Source of the DNA: Blastocatellia bacterium
GTDB taxonomy: Bacteria > Acidobacteriota > Blastocatellia > HR10 > J050
Direction of reading: 5' to 3'
DNA length: 64,000 nucleotides
Assembly: GCA_026985075.1 (NCBI GenBank)
Contig: JALSQX010000053.1
Span: forward strand, 1 to 64,000
Notes under the pieces: model-generated
Database searches by the model: none
What the model saw: the letters and a program-made list of their open reading frames with translations, nothing else
Told to the model about the DNA's origin: nothing
Shown here: positions 18,557-40,991 of the stretch, piece after piece
How positions within the stretch are numbered: position 1 is the first letter of the stretch
Layout of the letters: each line of letters starts with the position of its first letter
Translations under genes and position numbers: made by a program

Positions 18557-19147
18557 ATGTCTAAGGCGATGACGTCCTATGCGATGGATCTCCTCAATTT
18601 TGTTGATGTCAATTTCTTCGACGAACGCCATCTCCGCAAGTTCAGCGGATTCATGCCCTGGGGGCGTCACCACATGCTCGGCATTCGTCTCCTCTCGGAA
18701 ACGGGGCGGCCCAATATCATGTACGGGTTGAGGGATGGCCGGCCGGTTCCTCTTGACATTCTTCGCCCGGGCGAGCGCATGGGTTTTCTTCCCGCCGAAC
18801 TCCCCCATCACCTGACGGGCGATTACGGTTGGTGGCACATTAACACGACGGAGGAAATTTACATCCCGGTGAGGCGATCCGATGACAAGATCGCTTTCGT
18901 GATTGTGGAAGCTCTCTTTGATGATCGGTACGACTTCTTCGTTTGGTATTGTCCGGCCTGTTATCGGCGGTTATTCGGGCGAGAAGTCAACACTGGTCGC
19001 GTCGGCATTGATGGATATTGGAAAGCCGAGCGGGATGCGATCCAGGAGTTCAACGGTGATGAACGACATCGCCGATGCCCTGACTGTGGAACCATTCACC
19101 CCAAAGCGTATAGCTTTTTCTCGCCGGAAGAAGAAAAAGTGTGGTAA
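18557..19147 (+). CDS. HAO-like cupin protein with C-terminal rubredoxin-type metal site
   Basis: A 196-residue protein. Its C-terminal third matches the end of bacterial 3-hydroxyanthranilate 3,4-dioxygenase: a WYCPAC motif (C132, C135), then RRCPDCGTIHP (C174, C177), forming a four-cysteine metal site. The middle (about residues 60-120) has cupin-like strands with the LPAELPHHL and WWHINTTEE stretches, but the histidine/glutamate order differs from HAO, so I cannot assign the catalytic iron site. It is the first gene of an operon with two ferredoxins and a diiron protein. A good GGAGG site precedes the ATG. A ring-cleaving or related oxygenase role is inference. Confidence 0.6.
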   Translation: MSKAMTSYAMDLLNFVDVNFFDERHLRKFSGFMPWGRHHMLGIRLLSETGRPNIMYGLRDGRPVPLDILRPGERMGFLPAELPHHLTGDYGWWHINTTEEIYIPVRRSDDKIAFVIVEALFDDRYDFFVWYCPACYRRLFGREVNTGRVGIDGYWKAERDAIQEFNGDERHRRCPDCGTIHPKAYSFFSPEEEKVW

Positions 19148-19175
19148 CATGAGAGCGGCACCGGGAGGATGAGAC

Positions 19176-19460
19176 ATGCCCACGATCACCTTCTTACCCA
19201 CGGGCCGAGTCTGTTCGGTTGATGAAGGAACGACGATCCTTCAAGCCTCGCGGGCCCACGAGGTCGGCCTCTCGCATTGTTGTGGGGGCCGGGCCCTGTG
19301 CACGACCTGCCGCGTCATCGTTCAAGAGGGCATAGAGAATCTCTCCGACATCGAGGAATACGAATACGATATGCTGGAATTGCTCCATCTGGGTCCTTCC
19401 TATCGCCTCGGTTGCCAAGCCAAGATTTATGGCGATGTCGTCGTGCGGATCCCCGATTGA
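19176..19460 (+). CDS. 2Fe-2S ferredoxin (adrenodoxin-like)
   Basis: A 94-residue ferredoxin with the plant/adrenodoxin-type fold and cysteine pattern C36-x5-C42-x2-C45 ... C80 (CCGGRALCTTC, then RLGCQAK). It carries single electrons to oxygenases. Directly downstream is a ferritin-like diiron protein, a likely acceptor. Preceded by a GGGAGGATGAGAC ribosome-binding region. Confidence 0.88.
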   Translation: MPTITFLPTGRVCSVDEGTTILQASRAHEVGLSHCCGGRALCTTCRVIVQEGIENLSDIEEYEYDMLELLHLGPSYRLGCQAKIYGDVVVRIPD

Positions 19461-19538
19461 TGTGGTACACTCTGCTGGCCTCTCTCGCCTATCTGACGCT
19501 CGGCGCGAGGAGAGAATGCCCGACGAAGGAGAAACACC

Positions 19539-20357
19539 ATGGGAAAATTTTCCACCTATAAACGATTCACCCTCGATGATGATGTCGCTCGGTATGAGAC
19601 CGGGAAGACCATGCCGGGCCTGAAGTTCCTGGAAGAAATCGAGCACGATTACGTCGAACCCACGGCCAAAATTCTGCTCGATGATCCCACGCTCGAACTC
19701 ATGGCCAGCCCAGAGTGCACCGACGAGCAATACTTCAAGGTTCTGGCGCAATTCTGGGCGTTTGAACGGGCAGTCGGCGCACTTCATGCTAATTGGCTCC
19801 TCGGGTACAAACTGGGTCCCAATGGCGAGTACCAGGAAGTCGAATACATGGAGGTCCGGCAAATCTGGGAGGAATTCAAACATGCGCGTCTCTATGAAGA
19901 TGCCATCCTCCGCCTCGGCTATCTGGACAGCCGGTGGGAACTCCACTCCCATCCGTGGTGTCAGTTGATTCCCGAAGGTATGGCTCTCCTCAACTTCCTG
20001 CAAGGCATGAGCCGATATCCGATTCCCGTCCGCGCCGCAGCCAATCACCTCGCTTCTGAAGCGCCTTTCGTGTCCTGGTTCGATAAAGCGGGTCGCGTCG
20101 TTTGCAATCGCGTGGTCGCCGATTCGTTCGGTTCACAAGTTCTAGAAGAGACCTGTCACGCCAATATTGGCCGCTACGTGGTGATGAGGTACGCCGACAC
20201 CTCTGAAATCCAAGCCATGACGCGCTGGGCCTGCCAGATGGTCCTGACCTACACCAAAGGGTTTGGCCAGGCACTCTATCAATGGATTCAAACCGAGGAT
20301 GCCGATAAGCTCCAGATCACGGAGCGCTGGCACAGGCGTCGCGGAGGAAAACGGTGA
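19539..20357 (+). CDS. Ferritin-like diiron protein, putative oxygenase
   Basis: A 272-residue helical protein with a complete set of ferritin-like diiron ligands: Glu76 (WAFERA), E112-x2-H115 (EEFKHA), Glu174 (HLASEAPF) and E204-x2-H207 (EETCHA). Spacing of the two ExxH motifs (92 residues) fits a soluble diiron carboxylate enzyme of the R2, BoxB or stearoyl-desaturase class rather than a ferritin shell, which is about 100 residues shorter. It has no transmembrane helix. The two ferredoxin genes on either side suggest an electron supply. The substrate is unknown; I do not recognise the exact family. Confidence 0.7.
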   Translation: MGKFSTYKRFTLDDDVARYETGKTMPGLKFLEEIEHDYVEPTAKILLDDPTLELMASPECTDEQYFKVLAQFWAFERAVGALHANWLLGYKLGPNGEYQEVEYMEVRQIWEEFKHARLYEDAILRLGYLDSRWELHSHPWCQLIPEGMALLNFLQGMSRYPIPVRAAANHLASEAPFVSWFDKAGRVVCNRVVADSFGSQVLEETCHANIGRYVVMRYADTSEIQAMTRWACQMVLTYTKGFGQALYQWIQTEDADKLQITERWHRRRGGKR

Positions 20358-20378
20358 GCTGACCGAGCGAGGGTTCAT

Positions 20379-20621
20379 ATGAGGAAAGAGCATATTCTTT
20401 TCCGCATCGTCGAAGAAAAGTGCATCGACTGTGGCCTCTGCCGCGAGGTATGCCCATACACCGCCGTCTACATAGAGCCCAATCCGCTCAGAATCCGCTT
20501 TGTCGTCGACGAAGCCCGGTGTACGGGTTGTGGGGGCGAAGAGCACGCCCTCTGTGTTCGATTCTGTCCTGCTCCTGGTGCTCTCATGGAGATCCAGCGA
20601 ACGGCCCAGTCCATGGTGTGA
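20379..20621 (+). CDS. 2x[4Fe-4S] ferredoxin
   Basis: An 80-residue ferredoxin with two cluster motifs: C15-x2-C18-x2-C21-x3-C25-P, and C48-x2-C51-x7-C59-x3-C63-P. The second motif has a longer middle spacing, as in Alvin-type bacterial ferredoxins. Last gene of the redox operon, 21 bases after the diiron gene. Likely an electron donor to that enzyme or to the downstream catabolic reductases. Confidence 0.88.
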   Translation: MRKEHILFRIVEEKCIDCGLCREVCPYTAVYIEPNPLRIRFVVDEARCTGCGGEEHALCVRFCPAPGALMEIQRTAQSMV

Positions 20622-20762: not shown

Positions 20763-21728
20763 ATGACGCGAGAACGCCAGGGCGAACTGCTCCTCTTGAC
20801 CGTCGCTCTCATCTGGGCGGGCACGTATTCTGTTGACGGAGCGATGGTCGAGCGCGCCTCGCCGTTCATTTACCTGAGCGCGCGCTTCGCCGTGGCGGCG
20901 GCGCTCTTTCTGCTGATCTTCCACCGCTGTCTGCGCGGAGTGACTCGGCAAGCCGTCAGGCACGGAACCTGGCTCGGTTTCTATCTCTACCTGGAGTTCT
21001 TTCTCCAACTGCAGGGCCTCGTCTACACCTCGCCGGCCAAGATGGGATTCATCACGGGATTATTCATCGTCATCACACCCGTGCTGAGCGTGTGGCTCAC
21101 CCGGGCGCGATTGACGCGCGAAAACGTCCTGGGCATTCTTCTGGCCATGACGGGGTTCGGCTTACTGGCGTACCCTGGGGATACGGGCGAGATCAATATT
21201 GGCGACTTCCTCGGCCTGGGAGCGGCCATCGCCTCTTCCCTTCACATTCTTTATATGGGCATTTACGTCCGCCGACACGATGTGAATCAACTCAACATCA
21301 TTCAAATTGCGGCCACCGCCATGTTCTTCATTCTCACCGCTGGAGCGACGCAGGGGCTCATTCGTTTCATCGAACCCCTCCCGATGTTTCTCGTTCCCGA
21401 GACGCGAGGCATTCCCTCATCGGCTCAGTTTCCGCTCTCCGTACTGTATACGGCGGTATTGGCAACCGTCCTCCTCTTTTCCCTGCAAGCCCGCGGCCAA
21501 CGCCATGTCTCGGCAACCCGCACCGTGATCATCTTCAGCCTCTCTCCCGTTTTCGCCGCCATCATTTCGTATCTCACGCTCGGCGATTGGATTGGGTGGC
21601 GTGGCTATGTGGGCGGATTATTCACCGTGGCTGGAGTGATGATCTCGGAATCGAGGATTCTCACACCAGCAGAATCGACCATGGAACTGGCCCATTCGGT
21701 TTCCTCTTCAGACAAGGAGAACGCCTGA
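20763..21728 (+). CDS. EamA/DMT-family transporter
   Basis: A 321-residue inner-membrane protein with about ten hydrophobic helices in two EamA repeats (first from LLLLTVALIWAGTYSVDGAMV, second from GDFLGLGAAIASSLHILYMG). Members move amino acids, nucleosides, sugars and other metabolites. The stop overlaps the start of the M20 hydrolase (TGATG), so import of its substrate or export of its product is likely. First gene of the 15-kb catabolic operon, 141 bases after the ferredoxin, so read-through from the promoter at 18252 is possible. Confidence 0.88.
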   Translation: MTRERQGELLLLTVALIWAGTYSVDGAMVERASPFIYLSARFAVAAALFLLIFHRCLRGVTRQAVRHGTWLGFYLYLEFFLQLQGLVYTSPAKMGFITGLFIVITPVLSVWLTRARLTRENVLGILLAMTGFGLLAYPGDTGEINIGDFLGLGAAIASSLHILYMGIYVRRHDVNQLNIIQIAATAMFFILTAGATQGLIRFIEPLPMFLVPETRGIPSSAQFPLSVLYTAVLATVLLFSLQARGQRHVSATRTVIIFSLSPVFAAIISYLTLGDWIGWRGYVGGLFTVAGVMISESRILTPAESTMELAHSVSSSDKENA

Positions 21729-22903
21729 TGCTCACCGAAGCGGAAACGCAAGAGCTCATTCGCCTGCGGCGGTATTTTCATCGCCGACCAGAATTGGGAT
21801 TTCAAGAACGAGCGACGGCCGAGGCGATCGCGGCGCGACTCCGAGAATACGGATATACGGTACGAACAGGCGTGGGAGGAACCGGGGTCGTCGGAGAGCT
21901 GAACGGGCATGAGGACGGCCCGACGGTCTTGCTCCGGGCGGACATCGATGCCCTTCCCATTCAAGAAGAAAACGACGTGGCGTACAGGTCGATGCATCCA
22001 GGGATCATGCACGCCTGTGGTCATGATGGGCATATGGCCATCGCCCTCACGGTAGCCCGGCGCTTGATGCGGCTTCGATCTCGCCTCCCCGGACGCGTGA
22101 AGGTCGTCTTCCAACCGGCCGAAGAGCTATTAAGCGGGGCCAGGAAAATGGTCGAGGATGGCGTGTTGGAACATCCGCATGTAGATGCGGCGTTCGGGTT
22201 GCATCTCTGGAATAACTTGGATGTCGGTATGGTTGGCGTCGTCGCCGGTCCGATGATGGCTTCGGTGGATCGATTCGAAATCGTCATTGAAGGAAGAGGG
22301 GGGCATGGGGCGATGCCCCATCAAACGGTAGATGCCATCGTGGTGGCCAGTCATGTTGTCGCCGCCCTTCAAACCGTGGTCAGTCGGAATACTGATCCTC
22401 TCGACGCCGCTGTCGTGACAATAGGAACCATTCGAGGGGGCCAGGCGTTCAATATCATCGCCGAGCGGTCCACGCTCACGGGCACGGTTCGAACATTCGA
22501 CCCCACGACTTACGAGACGATCCCGAACATGATCGAGCGCGTGGTGGCGGGCGTTTGCCACTCCTTGGGAGCCCGGTATACGATGAGGTATGACCGCCTC
22601 TGCCAACCCACGGTCAACGATCCGGAGATGGCCGAACTGGCCCGCCAAGCGGCCAGCGAAGTCGTCGGACCCGAAAATATCGTACAGACGAAAGAGGCGC
22701 GCACCATGGGAGGGGAGGATATGTCGGTCTTTCTCCAACGCGTTCCCGGCTGCTACTTCTTTGTCGGCTCGCGCAATCGCGCCAAGGGGCTCGATCGGCC
22801 TCATCATTCGTCGCGGTTCGATTTCGACGAAGCCGCCCTCTCTATTGGCGTCGAGATTCTGGAGCGTCTCACGATGAATTACCTCGCGCGCGCGGCATCA
22901 TGA
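21728..22903 (+). CDS. M20-family amidohydrolase (hippurate/IAA-amino acid hydrolase type)
   Basis: A 391-residue dinuclear metallopeptidase that splits N-acyl amino acids. Metal-binding motifs: HACGHDGHMA near residue 97-106, QPAEE near 133, GLHLWN near 157 and GGEDMSVF near 329. The lid/dimerisation domain spans about residues 180-290. The start at 21728 overlaps the transporter stop and has AAGGAGA upstream; the longer open frame from 21092 only shadows the transporter. It supplies a hydrolytic step such as release of an amino acid from an amide-linked compound. Confidence 0.9.
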   Translation: MLTEAETQELIRLRRYFHRRPELGFQERATAEAIAARLREYGYTVRTGVGGTGVVGELNGHEDGPTVLLRADIDALPIQEENDVAYRSMHPGIMHACGHDGHMAIALTVARRLMRLRSRLPGRVKVVFQPAEELLSGARKMVEDGVLEHPHVDAAFGLHLWNNLDVGMVGVVAGPMMASVDRFEIVIEGRGGHGAMPHQTVDAIVVASHVVAALQTVVSRNTDPLDAAVVTIGTIRGGQAFNIIAERSTLTGTVRTFDPTTYETIPNMIERVVAGVCHSLGARYTMRYDRLCQPTVNDPEMAELARQAASEVVGPENIVQTKEARTMGGEDMSVFLQRVPGCYFFVGSRNRAKGLDRPHHSSRFDFDEAALSIGVEILERLTMNYLARAAS

Positions 22904-23634
22904 TGAATAGCATGGACTTATGGCGCTTTCTCCGCACGAGGCGGCGGGTGGACCTGACGCACCCGCTCGCCGAAGGCATGCCTTATTGGCCCGGTCGGCT
23001 TCAGGAACCGTTCAGCCATACGGTGGAGGAAGTGCGCGCCCGGGTGTGGGGAGGCTGCTTTGCCATGGCCGAACATATGGGTACGCATATCGATGCTCCC
23101 CGGCACTTCGTAGCCCACGGGCGCACTGCCGAGGAACTCCGTTTGGATGAGATGATTTCCTTGGGCATCGTCGTGGACATCAGCGACCGGGTGGAACGCG
23201 ATCCCGATTATTCGCTCACCATCGATGATCTCCGACGATGGGAACGCGAGCACGGTCGGATTCCATCTGAAGCCACAGTCCTCCTTCACAGCGGATGGGG
23301 GCGACGTTGGACTGATGCTCGATCTTACCTCAACGAGGATGCCGAGGGGGTCCTCCATTTCCCCGACTTCTCCGGCGACGCCGCCCGCTTTCTCGTCCAA
23401 GAGCGTGGCGTCACGACGTTGGGGTTGGATACGCTGAGCGCCGACAACATGATTCACACCATAGAGGCGGATTCCCCGGTTCACCGCCTCGTGCACGAAG
23501 CCGACGGTCGCATCATCGAGAACCTGGCTCGACTCGACGAACTTCCACCGAAAGATTTCATCCTCATCCTCGCTCCCCTGCCCATCGAAGGGGGTACGGG
23601 CGCGCCAATTCGCATCTTCGCAGTCATTCCATGA
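22900..23634 (+). CDS. Cyclase-family protein (kynurenine-formamidase-like metal hydrolase)
   Basis: A 244-residue protein of the KynB/cyclase family. The signature VDLTHPLAEGMPYWPG is followed by the metal-binding HMGTHIDAPRHF motif near residue 50 and a GLDTLSAD stretch near residue 177. Family members hydrolyse N-formylkynurenine, isatin or other cyclic amides and lactones using zinc or manganese. Overlaps the M20 gene by four bases. The length is 30-40 residues above typical KynB, so a non-kynurenine substrate is quite possible. Confidence 0.88.
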   Translation: MMNSMDLWRFLRTRRRVDLTHPLAEGMPYWPGRLQEPFSHTVEEVRARVWGGCFAMAEHMGTHIDAPRHFVAHGRTAEELRLDEMISLGIVVDISDRVERDPDYSLTIDDLRRWEREHGRIPSEATVLLHSGWGRRWTDARSYLNEDAEGVLHFPDFSGDAARFLVQERGVTTLGLDTLSADNMIHTIEADSPVHRLVHEADGRIIENLARLDELPPKDFILILAPLPIEGGTGAPIRIFAVIP

Positions 23635-23658: not shown

Positions 23659-24966
23659 ATGGCGATGATCGCGCATCGCGCAGAACGAAAAATATACTAT
23701 GGTTGGTGGGTGGTACTCAGTTCGGCCATCGTCCTGTTCGTCGGCCTGGGATTCGGCCTCTACACATTCCCCGTCTTCTATCCCGCTCTCATCGAGTCGT
23801 TCGGTTGGAGTCGTGGCGAGGTGGTCACCGGAGGCGCTCTCCTGATGGTCATCCTGGGCATCATGAGTCCGTTCACGGGCATGACCATCGACCGCTACGG
23901 AGCGAAGAGGATTGTGATGTTCGGCGTGGTGATGGTCGGAACGGCGCTGTTGTTGTTCACGCTCGTCCATTCGCTCTGGCAATTCTATGCGGCCTGCTTC
24001 TTACTGGGACTGGGGCTCTGCGGCGTTTCGCATATGCCCAATCAGGTTCTCATCGCCAACTGGTTCGTTCAAAAGCGCGGACTCGCCGTGGGTCTCATCA
24101 GCGCCGGAGTGGGGTTGGGTGGGGCAGTTGGTCCATTATGGGTCACTTCTCTCATTGACCATCACGGATGGCGCGCCGGATTCGCCGGCATGGGCGTGGC
24201 GGTGTGGGCCATTCCATTAGTCCTGGCGGCCGTGGTCATCAAGAATCGTCCTCAAGACATGGGCCTCTTGCCCGACGGCGCGGCCACTCCCCCTCCCCGA
24301 TCAAGGGCGCACTCCCGCCACCGACTTCGATGGGCGAGCGCGACGTTCGGTCAAGCCGTGCGGACGGGCGACTTCTGGATTCTCTTCTCGGCCATTTTCC
24401 TGATTTCCGCGATGATGTACACGATCAGCCAACATCTCTTCGTTCACCTGCGCGATAAAGGGTTCCCCTCGACGCAAGCTGCCGGCGCCCTGAGCATTAT
24501 TCTCGGCACGAGTTCGGCGGGCAAACTGCTATTCGGCGCATTGAGCGATCGGCTCGACAAACGAAATGTTATGCTGATCACGTTCATTCTGTTGGCCGGA
24601 TCATCCCTGGCCCTGCTCATGCCGCCGCGGTTGAGTCTCATTTATGCTTTTGCCCTGACGTTCGGATTGGGGTATGGAGGGATTTTCAGTTGCATGCCGG
24701 TCGTCGCCGCCGAGTATTTTGGGTTAGGCGCCCTGGGCAAGATTCTCGGCCTCATTTTCTTGAGTTTCAATCTAGGGGGCTCATTGTGGCCGATTGCCGC
24801 CGGGTATCTTTTCGATGCTGTGGGAAACTACGACCTCGTCTTCGCGCTCAATCCCCTGATGGGATTCACCGCGGCTGGCCTCCTTCTCTTCCTCTCCGAT
24901 CCCCGTTCCGTTCGCCGGCCGGTGGAAGGAGAAGGAGCCATAGAGTTCAGCAATGTCGGGCGCTGA
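23659..24966 (+). CDS. MFS transporter
   Basis: A 435-residue major facilitator with 12 predicted helices, the first being WWVVLSSAIVLFVGLGFGLYTF. The loop 2-3 region carries a DRYGAKR motif and the mid-protein loop a DRLDKRN motif. It resembles the oxalate/formate and monocarboxylate branch of MFS, so an organic acid is a plausible cargo. Sits in the operon between the cyclase and amidohydrolase genes. Confidence 0.88.
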   Translation: MAMIAHRAERKIYYGWWVVLSSAIVLFVGLGFGLYTFPVFYPALIESFGWSRGEVVTGGALLMVILGIMSPFTGMTIDRYGAKRIVMFGVVMVGTALLLFTLVHSLWQFYAACFLLGLGLCGVSHMPNQVLIANWFVQKRGLAVGLISAGVGLGGAVGPLWVTSLIDHHGWRAGFAGMGVAVWAIPLVLAAVVIKNRPQDMGLLPDGAATPPPRSRAHSRHRLRWASATFGQAVRTGDFWILFSAIFLISAMMYTISQHLFVHLRDKGFPSTQAAGALSIILGTSSAGKLLFGALSDRLDKRNVMLITFILLAGSSLALLMPPRLSLIYAFALTFGLGYGGIFSCMPVVAAEYFGLGALGKILGLIFLSFNLGGSLWPIAAGYLFDAVGNYDLVFALNPLMGFTAAGLLLFLSDPRSVRRPVEGEGAIEFSNVGR

Positions 24967-24999: not shown

Positions 25000-26397
25000 A
25001 TGACGGCTGAACCTCAACGCATCGATTTACTCATCACCCATGGTCTCCTGGTGACGATGGATAGGGAACGGCGCGTCATCACCGATGGCGCGCTGGCCAT
25101 TGCCGGAGATCGCATTCTGGACGTGGGGAAGACGCACGCGCTTCAGAGTAAGTACCAGCCTCGACGCCTCATCGATGCTTCGGAGAAGGTGATCACGCCC
25201 GGCTTCATCAATGGTCACGTCCATTGTACGGGCGAGCCGTTGACCAAAGGATTCGTCCCCGATGACACGCCCTTCGAAGAGAATGTCTTCGAATGGTTGT
25301 GTCCCATCTATGCGGCGCACGAGCCGGATGACGAATACTTGTCGGCTCTGCTCATTGCCATAGAGATGTTGAAGACGGGGACGACCTGCTTCCTGGAGGC
25401 AGGAACCGTCCGATTCGTGGACCATGTCGTTCGTGCGCTGACCGAAGTGGGCATTCGTGCCCGGATCGGTCGATGGGTCTGGGACATCCCGCCCGAGCCT
25501 CGAGTGTATCGGCAAACGACCGATGAGGCCATCCGCCATTTGGAAGAAACCCTACAGCAGTTCCGCCGTCGCGCCAATGGGCGCATCCAGGCCTGGTCGA
25601 TGATCATCGGGCACACCACCTGTTCCGATGCGTTGATGAGAGCGGCCAAACAATTGGCCGATGAATATGAGGTGGGATTGAATATGCACATGTCACCGGC
25701 GGCCATGGACCCCCAGGGTTTTCTGGAACGTACCGGGCATCGGCCCATCGAGCACTTGGCCGCTCTCGAGGTGCTGGATCGCAACGTTGTTCTCGTCCAC
25801 ATGGTCCACGTGGATGACAATGAACTGCGATTGGTGAAACAAAAGGAGGCTCACATCGTGCACTGCCCGACCACGGCACTCAAAGTGGCCTATGGCGTGA
25901 CCCAGATTGGCAAGTTCCCGGAGATGCTGGCCATGGGCATCAACGTCGCTCTGGGATGCGACGGCTCGAATGCCGCCAACTCTATGGATATGCTCCGAGC
26001 GACCTATCTGGCTGCCGGACTGTTCAAGGACGCCCGTCGTGATCCCACGATGATCCCCGCTGAGACAGCCCTGGAGATGGCCACGTTGAATGGGGCGAAA
26101 GCACTGCTGCTGGAGAATGAGATCGGATCGTTGGAAGCCGGAAAGAAAGCGGACATCGTGCTCTTTGACCGTGCGCGACCCGAATGGGTTCCCCTCCATA
26201 ATGTGGCCAATGCGCTCGTCTATTCGGCCGATGGGCGGAGCGTGGATACGGTGATCGTCGATGGGAACATCGTCGTGGAAAATGGTCGGTGTACGCGCGT
26301 CGATGAGCGGGATATCTATCAACGGGCCCAACGAGCCGGTCAGGCTATCGTGGCCCGCACCGGTCTCCCTCGGAGAATGAAGTGGCCGGTCATCTGA
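25000..26397 (+). CDS. Amidohydrolase (chlorohydrolase/SAH-deaminase family)
   Basis: A 465-residue metal-dependent hydrolase of the ATZ/TRZ/MtaD family. Metal ligands: HVHC after GFING near residue 72, HMSPAAM in the middle, HMVHVDD near residue 270 and the Asp in GCDGSNAANSMD near residue 317. These enzymes deaminate or dechlorinate heterocycles such as adenosine derivatives, guanine and triazines. The exact substrate is not clear. Ribosome-binding site GGAGGGAG about 20 bases upstream is distant, but the next start codon would cut the N-terminal composite domain. Confidence 0.88.
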   Translation: MTAEPQRIDLLITHGLLVTMDRERRVITDGALAIAGDRILDVGKTHALQSKYQPRRLIDASEKVITPGFINGHVHCTGEPLTKGFVPDDTPFEENVFEWLCPIYAAHEPDDEYLSALLIAIEMLKTGTTCFLEAGTVRFVDHVVRALTEVGIRARIGRWVWDIPPEPRVYRQTTDEAIRHLEETLQQFRRRANGRIQAWSMIIGHTTCSDALMRAAKQLADEYEVGLNMHMSPAAMDPQGFLERTGHRPIEHLAALEVLDRNVVLVHMVHVDDNELRLVKQKEAHIVHCPTTALKVAYGVTQIGKFPEMLAMGINVALGCDGSNAANSMDMLRATYLAAGLFKDARRDPTMIPAETALEMATLNGAKALLLENEIGSLEAGKKADIVLFDRARPEWVPLHNVANALVYSADGRSVDTVIVDGNIVVENGRCTRVDERDIYQRAQRAGQAIVARTGLPRRMKWPVI

Positions 26398-26412: not shown

Positions 26413-27468
26413 ATGAGGATGAAGGCGATCATCTACTACGAGTTCGGTGATATCGACGTTCTCCGTTACGAGGATGTTCCCGTGCCGGAGATCAACGACG
26501 ATGAGGTCTTGATTCGCGTGCGTTCCGTTTCGCTCAATCATCTGGATCACCTGCAGCGCCGCGTCCCCATCCTCCCCGGCTTTTCCCTTCCTCACATCGC
26601 GGGCATGGACGTGGCCGGGGACGTGGAACGCGTCGGTCGCGGCGTCGAGCGAGTGCATCCGGGCGATCGCGTCGTGATCAATCCGTCGATCAATTGCCAG
26701 CGCTGTGTGCGCTGTGCCAGAGGTCAAGATAACTACTGCGTCTCGTTGAAGGTCTTGGGAGGCAACGTTGATGGGGGCTTTGCCGAATTCGTGAAAGCCC
26801 CCGCCTCTCACGTTTACCGATTGCCGGATCATCTCTCCTATGACCTGGCGGCATGCATGCCTACGGTGTATTTGACCGCCTGGCACGCTCTGATAGACCG
26901 CGCCCAGCTCCGGGTCGGTGAAGATGTGCTCATCCATGCGGCCGGCAGTGGCGTGAGCATGGCGGCGATTCAGATCGCCAAGCTCTGCGGCGCTCGCGTC
27001 ATCGCCACCGCCGGCACGGAGTATAAGGTGGAGCGAGCCAGGCAACTGGGTGCCGATGTGGCAATCAACTATACGCGGGATGATTTCCCGGATATCGTCC
27101 GCCAGGTGACCAATGGCAAGGGCGTAGAGGTCGTCCTCGATCACGTGGGACCGGCGACCTGGGAGAAGAGCGTCCTCAGTCTCGCACCGAGGGGGCGTCT
27201 CGTCTATTGCGGGACAACAACGGGCACGCGGGCATCGATTGATCTTCCCCAGACCTACCACCTGGGCATCACGTTTATTGGTTCGGATGGATTCACTCTC
27301 TCTGAGTTCGAAGACGTGTTCGCTCTGTTCATCCAAGGGAAATTTCAGCCGGTGATCGACAGTATCTTCCCCCTGGAGCGGGCGGCCGAAGCACAGCGCC
27401 GCATGGCGGAACGCAAGATTTTCGGCAAAGTCATCTTGCACCCGGACGGATCTGACCGCCCCCTGTAA
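26413..27468 (+). CDS. Zinc-type alcohol dehydrogenase/quinone oxidoreductase family protein
   Basis: A 351-residue medium-chain dehydrogenase. The structural-zinc cysteines (CQRCVRCARGQDNYC, near residues 95-109) and the GroES-like catalytic half are followed by a Rossmann motif (AAGSGVSMAAIQIAK near residue 176). The catalytic-zinc pattern is incomplete: instead of the GHE signature, the equivalent region reads PHIAGMDVAG. It may thus act as an enoyl/quinone reductase or a crotonyl-CoA reductase-like enzyme. Start could be at 26419, one codon later. Confidence 0.85.
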   Translation: MRMKAIIYYEFGDIDVLRYEDVPVPEINDDEVLIRVRSVSLNHLDHLQRRVPILPGFSLPHIAGMDVAGDVERVGRGVERVHPGDRVVINPSINCQRCVRCARGQDNYCVSLKVLGGNVDGGFAEFVKAPASHVYRLPDHLSYDLAACMPTVYLTAWHALIDRAQLRVGEDVLIHAAGSGVSMAAIQIAKLCGARVIATAGTEYKVERARQLGADVAINYTRDDFPDIVRQVTNGKGVEVVLDHVGPATWEKSVLSLAPRGRLVYCGTTTGTRASIDLPQTYHLGITFIGSDGFTLSEFEDVFALFIQGKFQPVIDSIFPLERAAEAQRRMAERKIFGKVILHPDGSDRPL

Positions 27469-27543: not shown

Positions 27544-28020
27544 ATGGAGAAGGAAAGAACCATGGAAGTCGCGGGGAGAGTCGTCGGCGTTCAGAAGAAA
27601 ACCCAATGGACGCATCTGGCCCTTCACATCCGGGATTTGGATAGGAGCATCGCCTTCTATACCGATTTCACGCCCTTGAAGAAAATCCATGAACGGTATG
27701 ATGAAGTGACCCGGATGCGGACCGCCTGGTTGAGCGATCGACCCGAAGGTCGCGAAACGGAATTCGTGCTCGTGTTGATCGAAGGTGATCCTCCGATGAT
27801 TGAGGATGCACACCCACAACAGCCGATTGCGCCGGTGAGTCATTTAGGATTTTCGGTGGAATCCCGCGAAGAGGTGGACCGCATTGCCGAGCGGGCGCGA
27901 GCCGCCGGCATCTTGAGATTCGGCCCCACCTATCTGGATGATGTCGTCGGTTACATCTGTATCATCGCCGATCCTGACGGCCATCAACTCGAGTTCTCCT
28001 ACGGGCAAGTGCTCGGATGA
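27544..28020 (+). CDS. VOC-family (glyoxalase/dioxygenase) protein
   Basis: A 158-residue vicinal-oxygen-chelate protein with two beta-alpha-beta-beta-beta modules. First module starts at THLALHIRDLDRSIAFY; second at SHLGFSVESREEVDRI and ends with the metal-ligand region DPDGHQLEFSYG. Predicted metal ligands are the histidines of THLAL and SHLGF plus the C-terminal Glu of QLEFS. Activities in the family include lyase, isomerase, epimerase and ring dioxygenase; none can be chosen here. AGGAGG precedes the start. Confidence 0.85.
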   Translation: MEKERTMEVAGRVVGVQKKTQWTHLALHIRDLDRSIAFYTDFTPLKKIHERYDEVTRMRTAWLSDRPEGRETEFVLVLIEGDPPMIEDAHPQQPIAPVSHLGFSVESREEVDRIAERARAAGILRFGPTYLDDVVGYICIIADPDGHQLEFSYGQVLG

Positions 28021-28339: not shown

Positions 28340-29785
28340 ATGAATTTCCCGGTCATCAAAGCGGTATCCTACGCGCTCGCCCATACACCGGATCTCGTTC
28401 CCTATGGATCGAAACCGGAGCGCGAACTTCGTAAGACCCCCGCATTGTGTGGGCGCTTGGCGGCTCATTTACGGACATTCGATCAAGCTTGCGCCTATCC
28501 TCCTCACCAGGTGTTCATTGGCCGCACTCCCCCGGAAGCGCTGTGGGACAGAGAGACGCCTTGGTGGCGCCATCAGGATGCCATGGCGGAGCGGTGGGGG
28601 CCTTATGGGGAGATCATGCCGGAAGCCGAATTTTATGGACTCCTCCGGTTCAGCGACGAATTCGATCTCGTCTGGCTGGAACCGGCCTTCCTGGCCACTG
28701 TTCGTCAACGGTTACGCGCCCACCCGCTCTTTCGGACCGAGGACCTCGATCGACTGGGGGATGGCCATGCGTTGGACCGCATCCGATCGAAGATCACCGA
28801 TGAAGGCGCTCTCCCCCTTCGCCACCGGGATCGCCTGGTTGGCTGTGTTCGCCGCGGTCACGATGAAGATTCATTCCTCACTGCTAACATCCTGCTCGAG
28901 AATGTAGCGTGTAAGGCGACGGGCATGTTAGCCATTCGGTGGCTGTTTGAGCACCACCGGGAGGAAGGCATTCGCCCCGAAATCATCGATTACGTGATCA
29001 ACGCTGGCGAAGAAGCGGTGGGGGATCGTTATCAGCGAGGTGCCGGGAACCTGGCCAAAGCGATGGCGGAGCGCTCTGGATGTGTGAACAGTACCGGGGG
29101 CGATGTGAAAGCGTTTTGTTGTGGACCGATCCACAGTTTGATCATCGCGGCCGGACTCGTTCATTCCGGGATCTTCGAGCACGTCCTTGTGGTTGGTGGA
29201 GGAGCGCTGGCCAAGCTGGGGATGAAGTTTCGCGGGCATCTGAAGCACGACATGCCCATCCTGGAAGATGTCCTGGCCAGCTTCGCCATTCTCGTCGGGC
29301 CGCCGGATGATCGCAATCCCCGCATTCGACTCGACGCCATTGGCAAGCACGATGTGCGCTATAGCGGGTCGGCCCAAAGCATTGCTCGAGCGCTCATCGC
29401 CAATCCCCTGGATGCCCTGGGGCGCAGGGTCACCGACATCGATCGGTACGCTGTAGAATTGCACAATCCCGAAATCACCGAGCCGGCGGGAAGTGGAAAT
29501 GTCCCACGACACAACTATCGCACCATCGCCAGCTTGGGCGTGATGCGTGGAGAGTGGTCGCGCCATGCCATCGCCGAGTTCGAACGATGGCACGGACTGC
29601 CGGGATTTTCGCCGACACAGGGCCACGTCGCCTCGGCCGTGCCCTACCTGGGACATGCGCGCGATGCCATGCGGCGAGGAGACCTCCGAACGGCGATGTT
29701 CATTGGCAAGGGAAGCCTCTTTCTGGGGAAAATGACGCATCTCTCCGATGGGATGTCCTTCATTCTCGAGGCCCCGAATTCCTGA
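28340..29785 (+). CDS. grdC: Glycine-reductase component C beta-subunit homologue (GrdC-like)
   Basis: A 481-residue protein with the GrdC opening (NFPVIKAVSYALAHTPDLVPYGSKP) and a thiolase/FabH-like second half. The likely acyl-binding cysteine is in KAFCCGP (C260-C261), followed by VLVVGGGALAKLGMKF. In clostridia GrdC and GrdD together take the acetyl group from GrdA and release acetyl phosphate. No grdD (PlsX-like) gene is seen in this window, so GrdC may work alone, with a distant GrdD, or hand the acyl group to another acceptor. The gene starts the Grd block and is followed 70 bases later by thioredoxin. Confidence 0.85.
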   Translation: MNFPVIKAVSYALAHTPDLVPYGSKPERELRKTPALCGRLAAHLRTFDQACAYPPHQVFIGRTPPEALWDRETPWWRHQDAMAERWGPYGEIMPEAEFYGLLRFSDEFDLVWLEPAFLATVRQRLRAHPLFRTEDLDRLGDGHALDRIRSKITDEGALPLRHRDRLVGCVRRGHDEDSFLTANILLENVACKATGMLAIRWLFEHHREEGIRPEIIDYVINAGEEAVGDRYQRGAGNLAKAMAERSGCVNSTGGDVKAFCCGPIHSLIIAAGLVHSGIFEHVLVVGGGALAKLGMKFRGHLKHDMPILEDVLASFAILVGPPDDRNPRIRLDAIGKHDVRYSGSAQSIARALIANPLDALGRRVTDIDRYAVELHNPEITEPAGSGNVPRHNYRTIASLGVMRGEWSRHAIAEFERWHGLPGFSPTQGHVASAVPYLGHARDAMRRGDLRTAMFIGKGSLFLGKMTHLSDGMSFILEAPNS

Positions 29786-29855: not shown

Positions 29856-30191
29856 ATGATGACTGTGACGACGGAAACGTTCGATCCGGAGGTCGTGCGA
29901 GCGGAACAACCCGTTCTCGTCGATTTCTGGGGACCACGCTGTGGTCCCTGTCTGGCGCTCATGCCCGTTGTCGAAGAACTCGCCAGGGAGTATGATGGAA
30001 GGCTGAAGATTGTGAAAATCAATGCTCAGGAGAATCGAAAACTCTGCGTGCGATTGAAGGTGATCGGCCTTCCCACGTTTCTCTTCTTCGGTCGCGGCCG
30101 GGAAATGGGCCGACTCACCGGTCCCATTACAGCTGACGAGCTCAGAGAATGGGTTCAACGAGTGTTGTCGCGCGCACGTGGAATACGCTGA
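29856..30191 (+). CDS. Thioredoxin
   Basis: A 111-residue thioredoxin. The active site reads WGPRCGPC, with the CGPC pair intact and an Arg before the first Cys. The cis-proline loop is IGLPTFLFF. It lies between grdC and grdA, the place where clostridial grd operons carry their own thioredoxin to re-reduce GrdA, so that role is expected. Start at 29856 chosen by distance from AAGGAG (29840-29845); ATG at 29859 is an alternative. No thioredoxin reductase gene is next to it. Confidence 0.9.
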   Translation: MMTVTTETFDPEVVRAEQPVLVDFWGPRCGPCLALMPVVEELAREYDGRLKIVKINAQENRKLCVRLKVIGLPTFLFFGRGREMGRLTGPITADELREWVQRVLSRARGIR

Positions 30192-30207: not shown

Positions 30208-30678
30208 ATGAAACTCGCCGGAAAGAAAGTCATCGTTCTTGGGGAACGGGACGGCGTGCAGGGGACGGCGCTCAGCCAGTGCGTGAAGGCCGCTGGTGGT
30301 GAAGTCGTGCTCACCGTCGATCAGTGCTTCGTCTGAACGGCGGCCGGTGCCATGGACCTGGAGGATCAAGGGGCGATCAAGGCCACGGTTGAGGAACTCG
30401 GCTCGGACGATATCGTGGTCATCTTGGGATCGCCCGATCCGGACGCCGCCGAGATGTACGCCGAAACGGTCACCCTGGGCGATCCGACCTATGCTGGTCC
30501 ATTGGCCGGAGTCTCGTTGAGACTCCCCGTCTACAACATCTTTGAACCGGAGATCAAAGAACAAATTCCCCCAGAGGTCTACCAGGAGCAGGTGGCGATG
30601 ATGGAGATGGTGCTGCCGGCTGAGGAGATCTGTGCCCGCGTCAGAGCGGTGAGAGAGAAAGCCGGAGTGTCCTCATGA
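30208..30678 (+). CDS. grdA: Glycine reductase selenoprotein A (GrdA), UGA read as selenocysteine
   Basis: Reading through the TGA at 30334-30336 gives a 156-residue protein, close to the family length of about 158. The N-terminus (GKKVIVLGERDGVQG) and the redox motif C40-F-V-U43 followed by TAAGAMDLE match GrdA closely. Sec43 carries the carboxymethyl group in the known reaction and forms a selenide-sulfide with Cys40, later reduced by thioredoxin. Conventional translation would call only the fragment from 30352. Ribosome-binding site GGGAGGAAGG lies 5-14 bases upstream. A possible SECIS stem is described separately. Confidence 0.93.
30337..30361 (+). promoter_or_regulatory. Possible bacterial SECIS element of grdA
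   Basis: After the UGA, CCGGT (30344-30348) can pair with ACC (30356-30358) and GG (30360-30361), leaving a bulged T at 30359 and a 7-base loop. The stem is short and is not the same shape as those in the grdB genes, so this is tentative. Confidence 0.35.
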
Positions 30679-30735: not shown

Positions 30736-32064
30736 ATGACCCATCCCATTCGGATCATTCATTATCTGAATCAATTTTTTGGTGGCATCGGCGGGGAAGA
30801 TAAGGCCGATGTGGGTTTAGAGATCCGCCGCGGTCCAGTGGGCCCGGGGCTCGGCCTCCAGCACGCTTTGGGCCCTGACGGAGAGATCATCGCCACGCTC
30901 ATTTGTGGCGATAATTATTTCCATATGCAGATGGCCACTGTGCGGACCGCTGTTCTGGACATCGTTGGAGATCTCCGGCCGGATATCCTCGTCGCTGGTC
31001 CGGCCTTCAATGCCGGTCGCTATGGCATGGCGTGTGGCGAGGTGTGCAAGGTCGTCGCCGAACGGGCGCACATGCCAACCGTCACGGCCATGTATCCCGA
31101 GAATCCCGCCGTTGAGACGTACCGTCGTGTTCCCAATCTCTGGATTCTCCCCACGGGGGCGACGGCAGCCGATATGCGAGCGGTCCTCCCGCGACTGGCG
31201 ACATTGATACGGAAACTGGGGCGTGGCCAACCCCTCGGCCCCGCCCGAGCGGAAGGCCTCATCCCCCGCGGACAACGGGTTCTCACCACCGCCTCGCGCC
31301 CGGGCGCCGAGCGCGCCGTCACCATGCTTCTGGCCAAACTGCGTGGCCAGCCGTTCCAGACGGAACTCCCCCTGTACCAACTGGAATCGGTTCCACCGGC
31401 CTCACCGGTCGCCGATCTCCGGACGGCGCGGCTCGCCACCATCACCACGGCGGGCCTCGTCCCCCGCGGCAATCCCGACGGGTTCAAAGTCTTCAATGCT
31501 ACCCGCTGGAGTCGCTATCGGCTCCCGGATGCTCCCGCGCTGAACGGCGAGGACTGGGAGATCATTCACGGTGGATTCAACACGGCATACGCTCAGGCGA
31601 ATCCGAACCTCGTTCTTCCCCTCGATGTTCTCCGGGAACTCGTTGGGGAGATGATCGGCGAACTGGACGAGTATTTTTACTCCATCACTGGTGTGGGGAC
31701 GAGCTTGGCTGTGGCCAAGCAGGCGGGCGAAGCGATAGCGGCGTCGCTCGGCGAGGATCACGTCGATGCCGCCCTGTTAGTGGCCACCTGAGGAACCTGC
31801 ACGCGCTGCGGCGCAGCGCTGGCCAAGGAGTTGGATCGCGCCGGTATTCCCGTGGTGCTCATCTCAGCCATGGCTCAACTGGCCCATCAGGTGGGAGCGT
31901 CGCGCATCGTTGTCGGACGGAAAATTCCTCATCCCTGTGGTGATCCCCTACTCCCTCCGGAATTCGATCGCGCCGTGCGAAGGGAGATCGTCATCACGGC
32001 ACTCCACGCATTGCAGACGCCCGTCTCCGCGCCCACGCTCTTTCGCCCCCGATATGCCCTGTAA
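30736..32064 (+). CDS. grdB: Glycine/sarcosine/betaine reductase component B selenoprotein (GrdB-like, copy 1)
   Basis: Reading the TGA at 31789-31791 as selenocysteine gives 442 residues with Sec352, matching clostridial GrdB (about 436 residues, Sec near 350). The N-terminus IRIIHYLNQFFGGIGGE and the post-Sec motif U-GTCTRCGAALAKE are family hallmarks. GrdB, with GrdE, binds the substrate and splits its C-N (or other C-X) bond, passing a carboxymethyl group to GrdA. Start at 30736 is set by GGAG at 30726-30729 and by alignment with copy 2. Conventional translation would stop at 31791 and miss the last 90 residues. Confidence 0.93.
31789..31819 (+). promoter_or_regulatory. Bacterial SECIS element of grdB copy 1
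   Basis: TGA, then 11 bases, then a 6-bp stem (GCGCTG 31803-31808, CAGCGC 31814-31819) closing the 5-base loop CGGCG. The copy in grdB2 has the same spacing and loop with two compensated base pairs. Confidence 0.65.
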
Positions 32065-32196: not shown

Positions 32197-33495
32197 ATGC
32201 AATTGGACGTAGGGACCTTTCCGATCAACAGCATCGTTTTCGACCATCACACGCGACTGGATGGCGATACGCTCCGGATCAACCGGCACGAGCTGATCCA
32301 GATGATCCAGGAAGACCCGTGCATCGAGCGCGCCGAGATCGAGCTGGCTATACCGGGCGAATCGACGCGCATCATTCACGTATGTGATGCGATCGAACCG
32401 CGGATCAAGGTATCCGGGCCGGGAGTGTGCTATCCGGGCTTGATGGGCCCCGTCGATACGGTCGGTCGTGGCGTCACGCATCGGCTGGGGGGAATGGCCG
32501 TCGTGCTCTCGGCCGAGTACCCGAGGCTTATCGAGACGGGCGTGGGCGCAGCTCACGAGGCGATCCTGGATATGTCGGGTCCCGGTGCGCTCGGCCCGAT
32601 CGCCCACACGCTCAATCTGGTGCTCGTTCTCGCGCTGGCTTCGGGGTACTCCCAAGGAGATTATAATCGAGCCGTACAACTGGCCGGTCTGAAGGTAGCC
32701 CACCGATTAGCGCAAACGACGGAGGGGAAAGCGCCTCCTCTCCGACGCCGATATGAACTCACTCCCGTCGATACCACACTCCCCAAGGTCGTGTACATCA
32801 GTCAGTTTTACACCCAGCTCAACTTGCCCGCTCCCTATCTGACGTGGTACGGAATGTACATCACCGACTGGATGCCCCTTTGGGTCCATCCCAACGAGAT
32901 CCTCGACGGAGCCCTCATCCCCGGAGCCGTCGGCGGTGACGCCGTGAGGCCGAGTTCCTGGGAATACGTCAACAACCCCATCATCGCGCGTCTGTATGAG
33001 GCCCACGGTGAGGCTCTCGCGTTTCTCGGCGTCATTGTGCACCGGACGCGATTCGAAGTCTTTGAAGAGAAGCAACTCTCGGCCAACCAGGCAGCGAAGT
33101 TGGCCAAGCTCATGGGCGCTGATGGAGCCATCGTCACTTGGATTGGAGCCGGAAATGCATTCATCGAGGGGATGTTGACCGTCCAGGCGCTCGAACGAGA
33201 AGGCATCAAGACCGTGTTCATGACCTATGAACATGGCGGTCAAGAGGGATGGGAAGCGCCACTCATGTTCACTGTGCCCGAGGCTGACGCCATCATCTCG
33301 GTGGGGAGTCTCGACCGGGCGATCACCCTCCCGGCCGTGGAACGGGTCATCGGCGGAGATGAGCTGTGTTTAGATCCCGAAGCCAGTGGCGAGCGCGTGC
33401 CCGCCGCTGGCGAACTCCGACTCCCGTGGCGCCTCCCCATCGCCAGTGGCATCGATCATTGGGGATTTGGCCGACTCACCTGCATCGAGTATTGA
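32197..33495 (+). CDS. grdE: GrdE-like component B subunit (copy 1)
   Basis: A 432-residue protein of the GrdE family (clostridial GrdE about 428): MQLDVGTFPIN start, the ARIIH-type RIIHVCDAIEPRIKV motif near residue 58-72, and the HPNEILDGAL motif at 231-240. In classical GrdE the chain is cut before a cysteine around residue 242 to give a pyruvoyl group that binds the substrate amine. Here the matching stretch reads IPGAVGGDAV and has no cysteine, so processing seems impossible. Lies 132 bases after grdB1. Function as the substrate-binding partner of GrdB1 is inferred. Confidence 0.85.
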   Translation: MQLDVGTFPINSIVFDHHTRLDGDTLRINRHELIQMIQEDPCIERAEIELAIPGESTRIIHVCDAIEPRIKVSGPGVCYPGLMGPVDTVGRGVTHRLGGMAVVLSAEYPRLIETGVGAAHEAILDMSGPGALGPIAHTLNLVLVLALASGYSQGDYNRAVQLAGLKVAHRLAQTTEGKAPPLRRRYELTPVDTTLPKVVYISQFYTQLNLPAPYLTWYGMYITDWMPLWVHPNEILDGALIPGAVGGDAVRPSSWEYVNNPIIARLYEAHGEALAFLGVIVHRTRFEVFEEKQLSANQAAKLAKLMGADGAIVTWIGAGNAFIEGMLTVQALEREGIKTVFMTYEHGGQEGWEAPLMFTVPEADAIISVGSLDRAITLPAVERVIGGDELCLDPEASGERVPAAGELRLPWRLPIASGIDHWGFGRLTCIEY

Positions 33496-33504
33496 GTTCC
33501 GGAT

Positions 33505-34854
33505 ATGCGCACAACGCATGACCAGATGACCTCGCCCATTCGCATCGTTCACTACGTGAACCAGTTCTTCGGCGGAATCGGCGGCGAAGAACGCGCCGAT
33601 ACGGAACTGCTCATCCGAGAGCATCCGGTGGGCCCGGGAGTGGGCATCGCTCGGGCGCTCGGCGAGCGAGGACGCATCGTGGCGACCCTCATCGGCGGCG
33701 ACAATTATTTCACCGAGCGAATGGATGTGGCGCGATCGGCCGCGCTGGAGGCGATCGAAAGATACCGACCCGATGTCGTCATCGCCGGACCGGCGTTCAA
33801 TGCCGGTCGTTACGGCATGGCCTGCGGCGAGGTATGTAAGGCCGTCACGGAAACGCTTCGTATTCCCTCGGTCACGGCGATGTCTCCGCACAATCCGGCC
33901 GTTTCGCTCTATCGCCGGTCCACATATATTCTCCCCACAGGAGAATCGGCAGCGAGCATGCCACACATCCTTCCCCGCCTGACGGCATTCGCGCATCGAC
34001 TCGCCATTGGCGACGCCATTGGGCCAGCCGAACGCGAGGGCTATATGCCGCGCGGCATTCGTGGCATCATTTTGGATGAACGCTCTGCTGCCCAGCGCGC
34101 CGCTGAGATGCTCAAGGCTAAACTCACCGGCGAGCCTTACCAGACGGAAATTCCCGTTGAAGTCTTCCAGCCGGTCAGTCCAGCCGCTCCACTTCAGGAT
34201 CTCACCACGGCGACCATTGCGCTGGTGACCACCTCCGGACTGGTCCCTCGAGGGAATCCTGACGGATTCAAAAGTATGAATGAATCCCGCTGGGCGACCT
34301 ACCCGGTGAAGCACCTGGACGCGCTCGCCCCCGACGAATGGGAACCGATTCACGGGGGTTACGATGCGCGATTCGCGCGAGAGAATCCCAACCGCGTCGT
34401 CCCCCTGGACGTGTTGCGGGAGTTAGAGAACGAAGGCGTGATCGGACGACTTCACGCTGATCTCATCGTCACCGTCGGTGTTGGAACGCCCGTCGAAGTG
34501 TGCCAGCGGATGGGCGAAGAGATCGTCGACGAACTTCATCGCGCCAATGTGAGTGCCGCTATTTTCACGTCCAATTGAGCGACGTGTTCTCGTTGCGGCG
34601 CAACGATGGCCAAAGTCATGGAAGCATCTGGGATTCCGGTGGCGTTGATCACGGCGTTGACCACGCTGGCCAAAGATGTGGGCGCTCCCCGTATTGTCCA
34701 GGGCGTACGCATCCCTCACCCCTGCGGCAATCCGGCGCTCCCGTCCGATCGCGATCGGGCCGTGCGCCGGCGCATCGTCATGATGGCCTTGAAAGCCCTG
34801 CAGACGTCCGTCGTGAACCCCACCAGCTTCGTCGATCCCAGCGTCCTCATATGA
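33505..34854 (+). CDS. grdB: Component B selenoprotein (GrdB-like, copy 2)
   Basis: A second selenoprotein B. Reading the TGA at 34576-34578 as selenocysteine gives 449 residues with Sec358 (351 if the start is the ATG at 33526, the position matching copy 1). It is strongly similar to copy 1 throughout, including IRIVHYVNQFFGGIGGEE and the post-Sec U-ATCSRCGATMAK. It ends in an ATGA overlap with the frame of the next gene. Two B selenoproteins suggest two substrates or a heteromeric enzyme. The ribosome-binding site is weak for both start codons; coupling to grdE1, nine bases upstream, is likely. Confidence 0.92.
34576..34606 (+). promoter_or_regulatory. Bacterial SECIS element of grdB copy 2
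   Basis: TGA, 11 bases, then a 6-bp stem (TCGTTG 34590-34595, CAACGA 34601-34606) closing the loop CGGCG. Compared with grdB1, the first pair changes from G-C to T-A and the fourth from C-G to T-A, both keeping the stem. Confidence 0.65.
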
Positions 34855-39884: not shown

Positions 39885-39910
39885 ACCGGCAACCGGATGG
39901 GTGTTATACT
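39882..39910 (+). promoter_or_regulatory. Promoter for the aldolase gene
   Basis: TTCACC (39882-39887), 17-base spacer, TATACT (39905-39910). A start near 39917 leaves a very short leader before the ATG at 39931, with a G-rich ribosome-binding stretch at 39915-39922, so the transcript may begin just inside or before it. Confidence 0.5.
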
Positions 39911-39930
39911 GGCGAGGGGGGAATGAGCTT

Positions 39931-40746
39931 ATGTCCATTGACGCTCTATTCACCTTGAGGAGAATGTATCGGATCTTCCGAGACGACGGGCGCAGCCTGA
40001 TCGTGGCCATGGACCATGGCAGCGGACTGGACGTCTATCCGGCGCTCGTCGATCCGGCTCGCGTCCTCGATGCCGTGATCGCCGGAGGAGCGGATGCCAT
40101 TTTGACCACGCCCGGTATTCTCAAGCGATTCGCCTCTCGCTTGAAATCGGCGGGCGTCATCCTGCGGGTCGATGGCGGAAATACTCAACTGGGAGAAAAT
40201 GCGGGAGCTTACCGACTGTTATATTCGGTCGAAGAGGCCCTCCAATGGGGAGCCGATGCCGTCGCCTGTATGGGGTTTCCTGGCTCGCCATTCGAACAGG
40301 AGACATTGGAGAATCTGGCCGCCCTCGCCGGCCAATGCCACACCTGGGGCGTCCCCGTCATGGCGGAGATGGTGCCCGGGGGATTCTCCAACGTCCATCT
40401 CTACACGCCGGAGAATATTCGTCTGGCCGTGCGCGTCGGTATCGAGCTGGGAGCCGATTTCGTGAAAACGGCATACACGGGATCGAAGGAGAGTTTTCGA
40501 TCAGTCATCGAGCACGCCTATCGACCGGTCCTCGTCCTGGGAGGAGGAAAAGTCGATGACGCGCGAGCATTCTTCACCATGGTGAGAGAGGCTCTCGACG
40601 CGGGAGCGGCCGGGGTGGCTGTCGGGCGCAACATTTGGGGACACGAACATCCTCGAGCCATGGTGGCCGCGTTGAACTCTCTGATTCACGAGAAAGCGGC
40701 GCCGGATGAGGCCCTGGACATATTGGCCAATGAGTCTCCCCGATGA
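39931..40746 (+). CDS. DhnA/LsrF-type class I aldolase
   Basis: A 271-residue TIM-barrel aldolase of the DeoC/FbaB superfamily. Seen: VAMDHGSGLDVY near residue 25, GADAILTTPG near 55, the Schiff-base lysine in ADFVKTAYTGS near residue 180, and the phosphate-binding GGGK and GVAVGRNIWGH. Related enzymes are class I fructose-bisphosphate aldolase, LsrF and sulfofructose-phosphate aldolase. Together with the sugar kinase, dehydrogenase and aldehyde dehydrogenase downstream, it most likely cleaves a phosphorylated sugar made by that pathway. ATG 39931 follows GGGGGGA. Confidence 0.85.
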   Translation: MSIDALFTLRRMYRIFRDDGRSLIVAMDHGSGLDVYPALVDPARVLDAVIAGGADAILTTPGILKRFASRLKSAGVILRVDGGNTQLGENAGAYRLLYSVEEALQWGADAVACMGFPGSPFEQETLENLAALAGQCHTWGVPVMAEMVPGGFSNVHLYTPENIRLAVRVGIELGADFVKTAYTGSKESFRSVIEHAYRPVLVLGGGKVDDARAFFTMVREALDAGAAGVAVGRNIWGHEHPRAMVAALNSLIHEKAAPDEALDILANESPR

Positions 40747-40943: not shown

Positions 40944-40982
40944 CGGACCCCGTATTCGTCGACTCCGTCGAGCCCCTCGGTG

Positions 40983-40991
40983 TGTTACAAT
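40983..40991 (+). promoter_or_regulatory. Extended -10 promoter for the dehydrogenase gene
   Basis: TG-T-TACAAT with no clear -35 box; predicted start near 40998, ahead of AAGGAGAG and the ATG at 41030. Confidence 0.4.

Follow-up and report, generated by a model that had tools for sequence, protein, structure and literature searches.

A predicted divergent heme-oxygenase-like iron protein, encoded between two ferredoxin genes, heads a gene run ending in a selenoprotein glycine/sarcosine-reductase set in Blastocatellia

Profile comparisons place an uncharacterised 272-residue protein of an Acidobacteriota lineage in the heme-oxygenase-like (HDO) superfamily of iron proteins, as a divergent member. 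Its gene belongs to a set of four that opens an 18-gene run on one strand, and the run ends in a selenocysteine-containing sarcosine/glycine-reductase (Grd) set, which was absent from the original prediction for this DNA. The stretch analysed, referred to below as the window, comprises 64,000 nt of Blastocatellia bacterium (GTDB lineage Bacteria; Acidobacteriota; Blastocatellia; HR10; J050), assembly GCA_026985075.1, contig JALSQX010000053.1, positions 1 to 64,000 of the forward strand. We propose, as a reading for which the chances are about even, that the four genes encode a ferredoxin-fed, atypical HDO oxidase or oxygenase which opens the breakdown of a nitrogen compound, the product of which would end at Grd. 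The four genes had been described as standing directly upstream of a catabolic operon; they do adjoin those genes, but as the first members of the same run and not as a separate operon.

The four adjacent open reading frames that were predicted are all present, on the plus strand. They encode a 196-aa protein with a C-terminal Cys4 (rubredoxin-like) domain of the type found in 3-hydroxyanthranilate 3,4-dioxygenase (HAO) and an N-terminal part that is possibly an unusual cupin (18557..19147), a 94-aa [2Fe-2S] ferredoxin of the ISC/adrenodoxin type (19176..19460), the 272-aa HDO protein (19539..20357), and an 80-aa 2[4Fe-4S] ferredoxin (20379..20621). The intergenic gaps are 28, 78, and 21 bases, and short purine-rich stretches of the GGAG type lie upstream of the first three genes. 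Protein identity to the orthologues of a second genus (genome G002) is 81, 69, 86, and 80% in gene order, with pS of 0.76–0.97 and pN of 0.10–0.19. Since synonymous sites are saturated while the proteins remain this similar, the four genes are conserved and under purifying selection. The 272-aa protein is the best conserved of the set, compared with 66% for the adjoining EamA transporter, and a closer orthologue is 97% (272-aa protein) and 96% (196-aa protein) identical.

Direct searches with the 272-aa protein against Pfam, NCBIfam, PHROGs, and PDB sequences gave no match, in keeping with the earlier description of the operon as uncharacterised; the protein has no named family. Candidate relatives for profile comparison were drawn from genomes of the same class. 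With hhalign, the protein matched 24 PF14518 (HDO) sequences at 96.5% over residues 30-262, with a score of 73; an independent run against the HDO profile gave 97.2%, and scores over the runs were 73–74.5. Column shuffles of the query (n = 60) had a mean of 15.4 and a maximum of 23.8. An HMM trained only on 20 HDOs assigned 33.1–37.6 bits to the three orthologues, ≤5.9 bits to 2,000 shuffles, and 9.3 bits at most to ferritin-like proteins. Profiles of class I RNR R2, PaaA/PaaC, and remote PF05138 proteins reached 0.2–0.5% in hhalign, at scores of 14–19 that equal the shuffle level, and ≤3.9 bits as HMMs. A joint profile of the HDOs and the 272-aa protein retrieved CADD/pABA synthase, UndA, BesC, PqqC, FlcD, HrmI, SznF, and RohS from the PDB, which confirms that the reference sequences are HDOs. 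Identity to the aligned HDOs is 13–24%. AlphaFold2 models from 2-sequence alignments had pLDDT values of 45 for the 272-aa and 39 for the 196-aa protein, too low to judge the seven-helix HO fold expected of HDOs, and a Foldseek search with the 272-aa model returned noise. Of the earlier proposal of a diiron oxygenase, the iron-oxygenase character is retained and the implied ferritin-type fold is not.

The source genome contains several further PF14518 proteins (G000:C60:27877-33071, L059 and nearby; G000:C67; G000:C3), which are related to the HDO of the window at the superfamily level only. No class I RNR R2 (PF00268) was found in the order to which the window belongs (ten genomes, G000 to G009), whereas many genomes elsewhere in the class have one.

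Residues E76, E112xxH115, E174, and E204xxH207 of the 272-aa protein are invariant in the three orthologues. E112 and H115 lie on helix alpha1, E174 on alpha2, and Q200, E204, and H207 on alpha3. Five of these, E112, H115, E174, E204, and H207, align with HDO ligands that read E, H, E, D/E, and H in 20/20 HDOs, whereas position 200 is Gln in all three orthologues and His in every one of the 20. The published HDO motif is E-H-E-H-(D/E)-H, and ∼85% of the analysed groups fit E-H-X-H-(D/E)-H (PMC11363339); the sequence E112-H115-E174-Q200-E204-H207 departs from the canonical motif at one of six residues. Having Gln instead of His as the fourth motif residue, it counts as divergent within the superfamily and not as a canonical dimetal HDO. 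The E/ExxH/E/ExxH set of the original prediction is present and invariant, but it is not the standard full ligand set for this family.

We assigned Fe1 and Fe2 by analogy to AetD and SznF. In AetD, H79 and H172 bind Fe1, D76, E140, and H179 bind Fe2, and E176 bridges (PMC11611611). The ligands of SznF are E215/H225/E281/H311/D315/H318 (PMC11705231), and E189, 26 residues ahead of E215, is an extra Fe1 ligand (PMC11705231, PMC11611611). A carboxylate at this extra position accompanies O2 activation without a need for substrate (PMC11611611). Judged against these structures, the predicted Fe2 half-site is intact (E112, E174, bridging E204, and H207), and the predicted Fe1 half-site keeps H115 and has lost one His, replaced by Gln200. 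The Fe1 half-site may gain E76, from the helix preceding alpha1. In the alignment column of E76, the residue of one HDO (L054) sits 26 residues before the alpha1 Glu; SznF is aligned downstream of this column only, and because it is unaligned across that part we infer, rather than read from the alignment, that E76 corresponds to the extra Glu of SznF. The 272-aa protein also carries an insertion of ∼10 residues ahead of alpha1 relative to HDOs. By sequence comparison, then, all residues singled out originally probably lie near the metal, in another fold than the one implied.

The 196-aa protein had been described as an HAO-like cupin with a Cys4 end. Its relation to HAO holds for the tail: hhalign against four HAOs gave 98.1%, restricted to residues 104-184 (the last strand and the Cys4 domain), where C132, C135, C174, and C177 correspond to the HAO Cys4 end. 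NCBIfam HAO models scored far below their cut-offs (39 bits against 220, and 26.9 against 146), and cupin and 3-HAO Pfam models did not match the protein even at E ≤ 1. A PF06052 search of the source genome gave no hit, nor did the control genomes give one, so this result does not speak for absence. H84, H94, and E99/E100 are conserved in the N-terminal part. A box-1-like segment at residues 90-108 and a box-2-like segment at 64-89 stand in the reverse of the usual order of H-x5-E and then H (p about 0.06 and 0.09), and this part of the protein (window 18557-18870) is possibly a permuted cupin, with box 2 before box 1 as if circularly permuted. Ring cleavage by an HAO-like cupin, which the original prediction raised, is unsupported, the likeness being confined to the Cys4 tail.

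Both ferredoxins proved to be as predicted. The 94-aa protein matches Fer2 above the Pfam cut-off (42 bits) and ISC-type ferredoxin structures of Pseudomonas and E. coli at 1e-15 to 1e-14, and its cluster cysteines C36, C42, C45, and C80 are conserved in the second genus. The 80-aa protein matches Fer4 families above the Pfam cut-off; its cysteines C15, C18, C21, C25, C48, C51, C59, and C63 are likewise kept in the second genus, and the second motif is a long CxxCx7CxxxC. Ferredoxins with a long second motif tend toward very low potentials. The best NCBIfam match of this protein is the YfhL family dicluster ferredoxin, below cut-off. The four genes include no reductase for the ferredoxins. That the HDO would have dedicated electron carriers, as suggested earlier, is consistent with two ferredoxin genes flanking its gene; the electron route itself we infer. 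To our knowledge the natural electron donors of HDOs are mostly unknown, and we know of no precedent for a route from ferredoxin to an HDO. Ferredoxins go unmentioned in a review of HDOs (PMC13108848), so the route would lack a known precedent there as well.

The four genes are followed on the plus strand by an EamA/DMT transporter (20763..21728; PF00892, 112 bits), which is syntenic in the second genus, an M20 amidohydrolase (21728..22903; TIGR01891, 380 bits, above cut-off), a PF04199 cyclase that is arylformamidase-like (22900..23634; 143 bits, with the arylformamidase model at 64 bits, below cut-off), an MFS transporter (23659..24966; Pfam), a TRZ/ATZ-type, deaminase-like amidohydrolase (25000..26397; PF01979, 187 bits), a member of the Zn-type alcohol dehydrogenase/quinone reductase family (26413..27468; Pfam), and a VOC (glyoxalase) protein (27544..28020). 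The Grd set then comprises glycine/sarcosine/betaine reductase component C beta (28340..29785; NF040746, 626 bits, cut-off 450), a thioredoxin (29856..30191), the selenoprotein GrdA with Sec (UGA) at residue 43 (30208..30678; NF040748, 215 bits, cut-off 130), a GrdB-type selenoprotein with Sec (UGA) at residue 352 (30736..32064; TIGR01918, 456 bits, cut-off 65) and a GrdE/GrdG-type component B subunit (32197..33495; PF09338, 332 bits), and a second pair of these, with Sec (UGA) at residue 351 of the GrdB-type protein (33526..34854; TIGR01918, 478 bits) and its GrdE/GrdG-type partner at 34863..36161 (PF09338, 418 bits), all on the plus strand. In GrdA and both GrdB-type genes the UGA is in frame at the Sec position, and standard ORF calling truncates all three there. 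A tRNA-Sec with anticodon TCA is also encoded in the genome (72.8 bits against a gathering score of 47). No component C alpha was identified within the run, and the substrate-specific GrdB/F/H models all scored below their own cut-offs. Gaps of 141 bases before the EamA gene and 319 bases before the component C beta gene leave room for separate transcripts; promoter and terminator scans were near chance level and do not define the operon. Selenoprotein Grd enzymes are normally known from anaerobes, and cytochrome c oxidase (COX1) is encoded in the same genome.

A DeoC/LacD-type aldolase and an FGGY-type kinase are found near Grd genes in both genera (window 39901-44633; L049 7190-9003), and in G002 the pair sits beside GrdB1 on a separate contig. 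This arrangement hints at a shared regulon of the aldolase/kinase pair and Grd.

A search of the class genomes recovered an orthologue of the 272-aa protein in 3 of 162, and none was found outside its own bacterial family in 396 genomes sampled across the phylum. Plasmid and viral collections held no relative, and an exact-peptide-pattern scan of species genomes recovered the same-genus copy alone. Weak matches in two genomes (G095 and G286) had stops inside and scored 20 bits, and were rejected as chance. Whether the four genes travel together had been left to a neighbourhood survey, and they are adjacent in all three genomes with the 272-aa protein. The complete gene order was read in two of these. 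The order of the four-gene cluster, EamA, M20, and cyclase is common to both genera; in G002 the order diverges after the VOC gene, and part of the Grd set is on another contig. Selenoprotein-type GrdB (>360 bits) occurs only in the same 3 of the 162 class genomes as the HDO gene, and in no other of the 396 phylum genomes. Because there are three orthologues, from one bacterial family, 'invariant' and 'co-occurring' here describe a single lineage, and the co-occurrence of HDO and Grd may reflect a single evolutionary event.

From this gene content we propose the following scheme. Electrons from the two ferredoxins, whose genes flank that of the HDO, would most likely reduce the HDO iron centre, which would then activate O2 and oxidise a nitrogen-containing substrate; by the example of known HDOs, the attack would probably fall at nitrogen or next to a carboxylate. 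The Cys4-tailed, cupin-like protein may act together with the HDO or on what the HDO forms. Hydrolases and the dehydrogenase encoded in the row could turn the product into an N-substituted glycine, and the selenoprotein Grd complex would cleave it to acetyl phosphate, the normal outcome of the Grd reaction. The type of reaction is a guess from the HDO relatives, which when characterised have mostly fatty-acid and amino-acid type substrates (PMC13108848). A further reading, possible rather than probable, is that the protein represents a separate HDO subclass with a rebuilt Fe1 site (Gln200 for His, E76 added) and its own ferredoxins; such a protein would use O2 to start a catabolic route that ends in an oxygen-sensitive selenoprotein reductase.

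Other explanations concern either the protein or the role of the module. The pattern and spacings of the residues (35, 58, and 29) resemble E-ExxH-E-ExxH hydroxylases, and suggested a ferritin-like diiron oxygenase of the R2/PaaA/monooxygenase type, with E76, E112/H115, E174, and E204/H207 on a four-helix bundle. We dropped this candidate after the HDO profile and HMM scores and consider it highly improbable: the R2, PaaA/PaaC, and PF05138 profiles are noise, whereas the HDO match is at 97%, full-length, and colinear. If the fold is that of HDOs, the site could hold a single iron, in the Fe2 half only. FlcD, whose motif reads E-H-E-H-V-R, contains one iron, having kept Fe1 and lost Fe2 (PMC11363339); a mononuclear HDO of the present kind would be its mirror image. 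The complete Fe2 ligands, the lost Fe1 His, and the FlcD precedent agree with this reading, but H115 is kept, and E76, at a spacing compatible with E189 of SznF, could restore Fe1. We regard a single-iron site as doubtful, and it would be compatible with the scheme proposed above.

The module might instead protect the oxygen-sensitive selenoenzymes. Rubredoxin-rubrerythrin pairs reduce O2 or peroxide, and in a comparable way the ferredoxins and the Cys4 protein would feed an O2- or peroxide-reducing iron site on the heme-oxygenase-like fold. In favour of this are the strict co-occurrence of the HDO gene with Grd, the cytochrome oxidase of the host, and the presence of a rubredoxin-like Cys4 domain beside the ferredoxins; an Fe1 site changed in this way could also serve a reductase. 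However, we know of no HDO that acts as a protective reductase, and EamA and the hydrolases stand between the module and Grd, so we judge a protective role quite unlikely. An independent biosynthetic module, for cofactor or small-molecule maturation, merely neighbouring catabolic genes, would fit the 141-base gap after the fourth gene, the better conservation of the four genes than of the next one (69–86% against 66%), and the biosynthetic role of SznF, an HDO-plus-cupin enzyme (PMC11705231). It would not account for the presence of the module only where Grd is, nor for the cluster, EamA, M20, and cyclase keeping the same order in both genera, and it too appears rather unlikely.

Characterised HDOs number about a dozen and are mostly biosynthetic (PMC13108848). 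The 272-aa protein shares with HDOs (UndA, CADD/pABA synthase, BesC, AetD, SznF, RohS, and FlcD) full-length profile similarity and five of the six metal ligands, and with AetD the short ExxH spacing on alpha1 (DxxH in AetD). It differs from them in the Gln at the place of the invariant alpha3 His, the insertion before alpha1, the two adjoining ferredoxin genes, and a catabolic-looking setting. As in SznF, in which an HDO domain is fused to a cupin, an HDO stands beside a cupin-like protein, possibly with an extra Glu (E76 against E189); unlike SznF, the two are encoded by separate genes, the partner has an HAO-type Cys4 tail, and only two His ligands are kept. HAO and the 196-aa protein have in common the C-terminal Cys4 domain and the preceding strand, but catalytic cupin boxes in the usual order were not found in the latter. 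The Grd genes resemble the loci of amino-acid-fermenting anaerobes in GrdA and GrdB with in-frame UGA, component C beta, and thioredoxin. They differ in their occurrence in Acidobacteriota with cytochrome c oxidase, in the upstream O2-type iron module and hydrolases, and in having two GrdB/GrdE pairs.

We know of no described pathway that combines O2 chemistry with a selenoprotein Grd, and a literature search of partial coverage found none that joins the two. For an HDO, the locus supplies two candidate electron donors and an altered Fe1 ligand, each open to direct test. It also brings probable O2 chemistry together with a selenoprotein glycine/sarcosine reductase, in a lineage of Acidobacteriota that has cytochrome oxidase. 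If the protein does represent a subclass with a rebuilt Fe1 site, oxidative and Stickland-type reductive chemistry would be combined in one gene row.
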